DNA from: Clostridiales bacterium
Lineage (GTDB): Bacteria; Bacillota; Clostridia; Christensenellales; Aristaeellaceae
DNA: 47,256 nucleotides
Assembly: GCA_015056125.1 (NCBI GenBank)
Contig: SVGW01000015.1
Span: 1 to 47,256, forward strand
Reading direction: 5' to 3'
The position numbers were made by a program, and so were the translations under genes. The notes below the pieces were generated by a model, which saw nothing but the letters and a program-made list of their open reading frames with translations, was not told where the DNA came from and ran no database searches. Of this stretch, positions 7,190 through 47,256 are shown piece after piece (the first letter of the stretch is position 1; each line of letters starts with the position of its first letter).

Positions 7190-7266
7190 GCGCCCCTAGC
7201 TCAGCTGGATAGAGTGTTTGACTACGAATCAAAAGGTCACAGGTTCGAATCCTGTGGGGCGCGCCA
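7190..7266 (+). tRNA. tRNA-Arg(ACG)
   Basis: A 77-nt cloverleaf. The acceptor GCGCCCC (7190-7196) pairs with GGGGCGC (7256-7262), discriminator G, encoded CCA at 7264-7266. The anticodon stem TTTGA/TCAAA encloses the loop with anticodon ACG at 7224-7226, read as ICG after deamination. The T arm contains GTTCGAATC. Confidence 0.97.
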
Positions 7267-16443: not shown

Positions 16444-16449
16444 AAAAAA

Positions 16450-16471
16450 GAGGCTTTCAATTGAAGGCCTC
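16450..16471 (-). terminator. Hairpin copy 1, terminator for minus-strand reading
   Basis: A near-palindromic 22-bp sequence (GAGGC...GGCCTC) preceded by seven A (16443-16449). Read on the minus strand it is a hairpin followed by seven T. In the plus direction it is followed by AGTTTG of the inserted repeat and lacks a T run. An exact copy lies at 16729-16750. Confidence 0.75.
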
Positions 16472-16731
16472 AGTTTGTCGAAAAAGTATTTTCGACAAAC
16501 TGCGAATGGAAGTCAGCTAAAGCAGTCTTCCATTCGATCCATCACATTTACTGCAAAAATGGCTTTCCAGCCCTGTGAAAAGGGATGGAAAGCCTATTTT
16601 TGCGATCGTAAATTGATATAGGAAGCGGAATACTTCCGCTCCTCGCCGCCGCACATGTCGCCGGCTGCGGATTTCAGTCGAAGGGCAGCGGCCCTTCGAC
16701 GCATCCCAGGGGTTTTTTGACAGGCTGAGAG
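16469..16731. mobile_element. Structured repeat with terminal inverted repeats, copy 1
   Basis: About 260 bp without an open frame, inserted in a terminator. The left end TCAGTTTGTCGAAAAA matches the reverse complement of the right end (TTTTTTGACAGGCTGA) at 13 of 16 positions. Internal hairpins: 16471-16502 (14-bp perfect stem, loop AGTA), 16503-16536 (10 bp), 16553-16603 (17 bp with one bulge), 16620-16643 (10 bp with one bulge), 16677-16700 (10-bp perfect stem, loop AGCG). A second copy starting at 47113 is about 98 percent identical over 144 nt. The flanks are exact 22-bp copies of the host terminator hairpin. No transposase is present, so if mobile it is non-autonomous. Confidence 0.75.
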
Positions 16732-16756
16732 GCTTTCAATTGAAGGCCTCTTTTTT
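16729..16756 (+). terminator. Hairpin copy 2, terminator for plus-strand reading
   Basis: The exact duplicate of the 16450-16471 hairpin, here followed by six T (16751-16756). It can end plus-strand transcripts from the acyltransferase-like gene after they have crossed the repeat. Confidence 0.8.
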
Positions 16757-26916: not shown

Positions 26917-26993
26917 GGACCCGTAGCTCAGTTGGATAGAGTGTCAGACTCCGACTCTGAAGGTCGCGCGTTCGAGTCGCGCCGGGTTCGCCA
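26917..26993 (+). tRNA. tRNA-Arg(CCG), integration target
   Basis: A 77-nt cloverleaf: acceptor GGACCCG (26917-26923) with CGGGTTC (26983-26989), one G-U pair, discriminator G, encoded CCA (26991-26993). The stem TCAGA/TCTGA holds anticodon CCG at 26951-26953. The gene is intact; its 3' part from the anticodon loop is repeated at 34290, so an element integrated here and restored the gene. Confidence 0.97.
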
Positions 26994-47089: not shown

Positions 47090-47113
47090 GGCGATACGAA
47101 ATTCCGTATCGTC
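47090..47113 (+). terminator. Terminator hairpin interrupted by repeat copy 2
   Basis: GGCGATACG (47090-47098) pairs with CGTATCGTC (47105-47113), loop AAATTC, with five A upstream. It is followed by TCAGTTTG of the repeat and lacks the expected T run. Confidence 0.7.
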
Positions 47114-47256
47114 TCAGTTTGTCGAAAAAGTATTTTCGACAAACTGCGAATGGAAGACAGCTAAAGCAGTCTTCCATTCGATCCATCACATTTACTGCAA
47201 AAATGGCTTTCCAGCCCTGTGAAAAAGGGATGGAAAGCCTATTTTTGCGGCCGTAA
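47113..47256. mobile_element. Structured repeat, copy 2 (cut by window end)
   Basis: 144 nt matching 16469 onward, with one substitution near the second hairpin (GACAGC here, GTCAGC in copy 1), one extra A, and GGCCG for GATCG near the end. The first three hairpins are present; the second has a longer stem here (GAAGAC/GTCTTC). The rest lies outside the window. Confidence 0.85.

Follow-up and report, generated by a model that had tools for sequence, protein, structure and literature searches.

The element in the window and its ends

The window, that is, the whole stretch of 47,256 nucleotides analysed here, holds two copies of a hairpin-rich repeat that had been picked out by eye from the sequence. 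Both copies proved to be real and are 97% identical over their common part, the second one being cut off by the end of the contig. The extent first proposed for copy 1, positions 16469 to 16731, was slightly too wide. The element is real, but its true bounds are 16471 and 16727, and the remaining bases belong to a duplication of the target. The terminal inverted repeats are 15 bp long and imperfect. Within the 257 bp of the element there is no open reading frame of at least 100 amino acids, and a transposase gene is absent. The features at the two loci are:

16471 to 16727, plus strand: element copy 1, 257 bp, gene-free, defined by the end repeats, the flanking duplication and a covariance model hit (258 bits over model positions 1-254)
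16471 to 16485, plus strand: left terminal inverted repeat CAGTTTGTCGAAAAA, which doubles as the 5' arm of hairpin 1
16713 to 16727, minus strand: right terminal inverted repeat, reading inward CAGCCTGTCAAAAAA, the same as the left end of L425, an IS1182-family element
16449 to 16470, plus strand: left-hand member of the duplicated pair of terminator hairpins, 22 bp, with the T-run no longer behind it
16728 to 16749, plus strand: right-hand member of the duplicated pair of terminator hairpins, 22 bp, 0 mismatches, followed by the T-run
47115 to 47256, plus strand: element copy 2, ending at the contig end (model positions 1-137)
47090 to 47114, plus strand: terminator-like hairpin at the left junction of copy 2, read from the sequence

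When the window was scanned with Rfam 15, only two tRNA genes scored above the gathering threshold, both on the plus strand (7190 to 7263 and 26917 to 26990). A scan of seven loci with E values up to 1 returned RT-9 (E 0.2) and cow-rumen-3 (E 0.38), both far below their gathering scores.

Insertion at terminator hairpins

Readable insertions adjoined the foot of a hairpin, and when both flanks were readable the whole hairpin was usually found on both sides of the element. After de-duplication, 58 copies with both ends were available, and the flanks were usable in 56. A direct repeat of at least 18 bp flanked the element in 38 of these 56 copies (17 of 20 in the source genome), whereas 0 of 227 mismatched flank pairings, used as a control, showed such a repeat. 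The 38 repeats measured 18 to 41 bp with a median of 24.5, and their length followed the length of the stem-loop (r 0.77). In 20 of the 38 copies, repeat and stem ended at exactly the same position, and in 32 the two ends were no more than 3 nt apart. By the same test, 18 of the 56 copies had no repeat of 18 bp; they include diverged pairs of hairpins that can still be recognised (L010 with a 2-nt indel, and L227) and copies without a hairpin (L007).

A T-run stood to the right of the right hairpin copy in 35 of the 56 cases and an A-run to the left of the left copy in 24; one or the other was present in 44. The target hairpins are Rho-independent terminators, terminator-like by these T- and A-runs. 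At copy 1, only the right-hand hairpin keeps its T-run, and it is also the only terminator-like site that was scored between 16380 and 16800 (at 16727 to 16752), so the upstream transcript is expected to read through the element and to end past it. The location downstream of genes, seen from the sequence alone, is borne out by these results and is explained by the terminator being the target.

Copies and mobility in the source genome

The source genome is a draft of 2.86 Mb in 122 contigs and is 82% complete. Searching it with the exact end-repeat pattern gave 119 matches, compared with 0 for the reversed control pattern. From 99 loci of this genome, with 100 of the 119 end matches covered, 114 element-host junctions were obtained (53 left and 61 right). 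These came to about 74 sites when they were linked by position or by a common target, and 36 junctions stayed unpaired. The site number for the 114 junctions lies between 57 and about 75, where the minimum of 57 assumes that every unpaired junction has an unrecognised partner, and one or two may be chance motifs. The element occupies roughly 60 to 75 sites in the source genome; the further copies on which the sequence-only reading had made its proposal depend are therefore there. Among the best 40 of 151 scored candidates, most full-length copies of this genome were 95-100% identical to copy 1, and one was 85% identical. Many contig ends lie inside the element, which breaks assemblies.

A hairpin ended at most 5 nt from the junction in 100 of the 114 cases. 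Several of the other 14 junctions have hairpins that the simple scan cut differently, and no hairpin was visible at L007, L012, L057, L075 and L135.

The site at the end of dnaN was compared between genomes. There the element was present only in the source genome, whereas 20 of the 21 other genomes examined were empty and one had a remnant; the comparison covers 22 of the 25 genomes with a match, and the terminators differ between species. The copy at dnaN is a lineage-specific insertion. The gene preceding copy 1 is poorly conserved, with a match in 12 of 29 genomes and 28-33% identity outside the source genome. Terminal inverted repeats, target duplications and the dnaN insertion together support the earlier suggestion that the repeat is a mobile DNA element.

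Relation to IS1182-family insertion sequences

Two complete IS1182-family elements, L101 and L102, were found in the genus (420 and 431 bits with NCBIfam NF033551, whose cut-off is 270). Both lie inside terminators with the whole hairpin duplicated, over 22 and 33 bp, respectively. The same was observed for plasmid IS1182-family elements of other bacteria, where the whole hairpin was duplicated in 10 of 10 cases over 18-30 bp; these ten, which include ISBspe1, were hand-picked out of 40 that were listed from a total of 1,809 records. In a later sample of full-length IS1182 loci from the taxonomic family, from which L426 with its two stops was excluded, hairpin duplication was found in only 2 of 13, and 5 of the 13 had truncated flanks. 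One of the two is L425, an element of the same taxonomic family (409 bits), and its left end equals the right end of our element over 15 bp. The ends of L101, L102 and L104 are similar to the element's ends as well.

The likeness to L101, L102, L425 and the ten plasmid copies extends over several features. The ends start with CAG and have a TGTC-like block, the right end has GGGGTTT, insertion occurs into terminator-like hairpins and the whole hairpin is duplicated. In contrast to these insertion sequences, the element has no transposase gene but a conserved multi-hairpin inside. Because of its end repeats and its target behaviour we file the element with IS1182, and it is very probably a non-autonomous transposable element (MITE) of this insertion-sequence group. 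The earlier view that the repeat belongs to no described family holds in so far as no Rfam family matched above its gathering score, but by its ends and its choice of target it groups with the IS1182-family elements.

The plasmid IS1182-family elements L285-L288 repeat their left end in inverted orientation just inside it, in some cases with a T-run behind the inverted copy. The left end thereby forms a terminator-like hairpin that resembles hairpin 1 of the element.

No match to the IS1182 family, DUF772, DDE_Tnp_1_6 or DDE_Tnp_1 was found in the 82% complete draft of the source genome. A full-length IS1182 match was present in 14 of 120 genomes of the taxonomic family, and in these 120 genomes the element and an IS1182 match did not co-occur beyond chance (p 0.58 for full-length matches, 0.86 for any match). 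These two results, like the 2 of 13 above, count against the IS1182 assignment, but since metagenome drafts lose repeats, a missing transposase is weak evidence. In 35 DDE loci of the genus the end motif had no exact match. The end motif at L061 was considered as a gene-carrying copy and rejected, the neighbouring gene being one that, by eye, we take to encode an acetyltransferase.

A proposed pathway for insertion

We propose that an IS1182-family transposase acts in trans on the element. With the target hairpin extruded, the transposase would connect the two 5' feet of that hairpin with the ends of the element, and repair of the gaps would then leave a copy of the hairpin on either side. The hairpin bearing the T-run would end up beyond the element. 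The element would thus lie in the 3' untranslated region, where little harm is to be expected from it.

ISfinder lists variable target repeats for IS1182. Two published cases count against the IS1182 assignment. For ISPse1, an IS1182 element, a 4-bp duplication is given in the account of PMC3281130, and IS1272, also of the IS1182 family, targets stem-loops and terminators and removes the stem-loop, as described in the relevant parts of PMC4923244 and PMC5678879. The same parts indicate that IS1272 and TnSha1 of Staphylococcus choose hairpins or terminators by structure and not by sequence, as the element does; in their case, however, the stem-loop is removed without a target duplication, whereas in ours it is duplicated. 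The element does not show a replacement of the stem-loop in the manner of IS1272, its target stem-loop being duplicated and not removed. In pathway b of Figure 13 in PMC5678879, the ends attack the two 5' feet of an extruded hairpin and the whole stem-loop is duplicated. The outcome at our element matches this pathway in that the length of the duplication is set by the target fold, and the joining step would be the one drawn there.

The description of bacterial MITEs such as QMITE2 in the review PMC10969869 fits the element in that they are short, gene-free, strongly folded, present in many copies and, as we propose for the element, moved in trans by an insertion sequence. Unlike these QMITE2-type MITEs, the element has a target duplication that is set by a hairpin and a covarying inside that is common to many genera. 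IS1182 has 0 occurrences in this review. Our search, which covered only an open-licence library, turned up no account of IS1182 members duplicating a whole terminator, nor of an IS1182-type MITE like this one. Within the IS1182 type, what is new is the duplication of the whole hairpin, together with the copy number and a covarying inside that is conserved from genus to genus.

Distribution among relatives

By DNA similarity search, the element was detected in 28 of the 29 genomes of the genus, the source genome included, and in 1 of 31 other genomes. A covariance model built from 27 copies extended this to 68 of 120 sampled genomes of the taxonomic family and to 33 of 50 genera, the copies per genome being minimum numbers taken from the best 17 per genome. 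The covariance-model search that the sequence-only reading had suggested has thus brought up many more copies. Of 40 distant copies, 11 lie between direct repeats that are 15 bp or longer and form a hairpin themselves; the other 29 failed this strict test. The covariance model takes no account of these repeats. At least 95 stretches contained the core pattern, and the titles listed name uncultured Clostridia, Clostridiales or Christensenellaceae, with ruminants as the origin wherever a source is given. The element had no match in the phage and plasmid collections, nor did a distant copy match phages.

Internal hairpins

The inside of copy 1 is made up of six hairpins:

16471 to 16502, plus strand: hairpin 1, formed by the left end repeat and its inverted copy
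16503 to 16536, plus strand: hairpin 2
16541 to 16617, plus strand: hairpin 3, with a long stem and a tip that occurs in both orientations among the copies of the source genome (36 and 11 of 47)
16620 to 16643, plus strand: hairpin 4, where the conserved core begins
16644 to 16672, plus strand: hairpin 5 with flanking conserved motifs, ending in CTGCGGAT
16677 to 16700, plus strand: hairpin 6, followed by the conserved CATCCC at 16702-16707

When the fold of copy 1 was compared with shuffled sequences, z was -10.0 for the plus-strand RNA, -10.2 for the minus-strand RNA and -12.2 for DNA, and in each of the three tests 0 of 200 shuffles folded as well. The unpaired motifs around hairpins 4-6 (CTCCTCG, CTGCGGAT and CATCCC) are among the best conserved positions between genera, and hairpin 3 has a constant internal loop at its base. 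Copy 2 does have a longer second stem, from which selection on the structure had been suspected, but it is private to this copy, most examined copies keeping the mismatch. Selection on the structure is strongly supported by the covariation between species described below, but the single base change is no evidence for it.

Several copies deviate from this plan. In L050 (600-1100), L051, L026-L030, L053 and L054, hairpin 4 is interrupted by a module of about 110 bp with hairpins of its own, which begins with AACCTCACAATTCGGCATTGT and contains GTAAGCGGGGTAAAGTCCCGCTTAC. The loop of hairpin 6 is enlarged in L055, L064, L071, L084, L089, L090 and L091 by a module beginning with CGTATTCCGCGAGCTCAAAGG. 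The insides of the element may be exchanged as modules. In L088 and L095, a short left-half version runs into sequence that also precedes another copy, as if an element had been inserted in a terminator beside a remnant. On the minus strand of L081, about 30 bp at offset 639 correspond to hairpin 1 alone (32 bp), directly before a terminator and with the rest of the element absent.

Covariation and the possible role of the fold

For the analysis of the helices, seven odd copies were removed by hand before clustering; of the 29 non-redundant copies that resulted, 27 were aligned with MAFFT (without L049 and L179) at a mean identity of 0.68. The 58 predicted pairs of this alignment were paired in 97.1% of the cells, compared with 37-49% when the partners were slid, and 33 of the 58 showed changes on both sides. 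In a model-fitted alignment of 46 copies from the taxonomic family, changes on both sides were found in 49 of the 58 pairs. There, 517 two-sided cells stood against 12 one-sided cells, so covarying pairs, whose search had been proposed with the sequence-only reading, do exist; these counts are of cells and are inflated by common ancestry.

The inside of the element may be a DNA device and not an RNA, a reading that we hold to be somewhat less likely than not. The hairpins with their conserved core would have to be in folded form within duplex DNA for a host protein or the transposition machinery to recognise them, and would have been maintained for this through the divergence of at least 33 genera.

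It is also conceivable, though unlikely, that the helices are kept without selection, one arm being copied from the other by quasi-palindrome correction or hairpin-mediated recombination. The arms are indeed nearly perfect in their Watson-Crick pairing, and the tip of hairpin 3, inverted in 11 of the 47 copies of the source genome, is a sign of hairpin-mediated DNA events. Such copying, however, predicts neither the conserved unpaired motifs around hairpins 4-6 nor the constant internal loop at the base of hairpin 3. As we read it, arm-to-arm copying alone leaves the conserved motifs unexplained.

A functional structured RNA, for instance a stabilising or regulatory RNA of the 3' untranslated region that is spread by transposition and selected on one RNA strand, seems to us still somewhat less probable. 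The covariation across the taxonomic family, the conserved unpaired motifs and the position in likely 3' untranslated regions would agree with it, but the comparison with RNase P does not. In the MAFFT alignment, the ratio of two-sided to one-sided cells was 230:12, whereas it was 253:84 for RNase P of matching divergence (0.65; an order-level set of 27 of 30 loci) and 47:72 for RNase P of the genus. G-U made up 1.5% of the variable pairs of the element, compared with 12.8% and 18.1% in the two RNase P sets. Among pairs with at least two Watson-Crick types, there were 12 G-U and 17 A-C cells in the element and 59 and 15, and 28 and 0, respectively, in RNase P. When all pairs were counted, the element had 40 G-U cells, 27 of them in one invariant column pair, and 22 A-C cells. 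Since an A-C cell is a G-U on the opposite strand, there is no strand preference in this alignment. In the model-fitted alignment G-U did exceed A-C (20 and 10 of 1,976 cells), in favour of a one-strand RNA, although such an alignment leans to G-U. Further against it, both strands fold about equally well, scoring for a promoter-like site gave none, and the gene contexts were without a clear orientation bias (14, 12, 9 and 4 of 39, by crude ORF calls). Watson-Crick double changes maintain the internal helices, and little or no preference for either strand is seen. With covariation that is nearly free of G-U, the structured RNA that had been suggested from the sequence is unsupported in the usual one-strand sense.

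The fragment of another terminator-targeting element, such as a group II (class C) intron, is hardly to be considered: group IIC introns insert beside terminators, but the inverted end repeats and the whole-hairpin target duplications speak against one, and the Rfam scan of the window returned no group II intron. REP sequences with their RAYT transposases are similar in having many palindromic intergenic copies that persist in a lineage; they differ in that, to our knowledge, REPs have no inverted end repeats and no long target duplications. The intron, REP and IS200/IS605 readings were all dropped on the end repeats and the duplications.

As for what maintains the fold, the few G-U pairs and the little strand preference suggest that the hairpins are preserved in DNA, or else in the RNA of both strands, and not in that of one strand. 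The folded form would then act as DNA, in a hairpin or cruciform during transposition, or as an RNA that can be read from either side.

Significance

In print, structure-guided targeting by the IS1182 family means that the target hairpin is lost, whereas here many natural insertions duplicate it. As the duplication is as long as the hairpin, a mechanism acting at the foot of the hairpin becomes directly testable. The choice of target suggests how many copies can be carried safely, since a terminator hairpin complete with T-run is restored on the far side of each insertion. In general, short MITEs should decay. In this element, by contrast, a covarying fold has persisted across a taxonomic family, in a way that differs from RNase P; this invites a search for DNA-structure functions in other hairpin-rich repeats that have been taken for RNAs or junk. 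If the inside is a DNA device, the element would be a long-lived parasite that relies twice on DNA secondary structure, once in the cruciform of the target terminator and once in the element itself.
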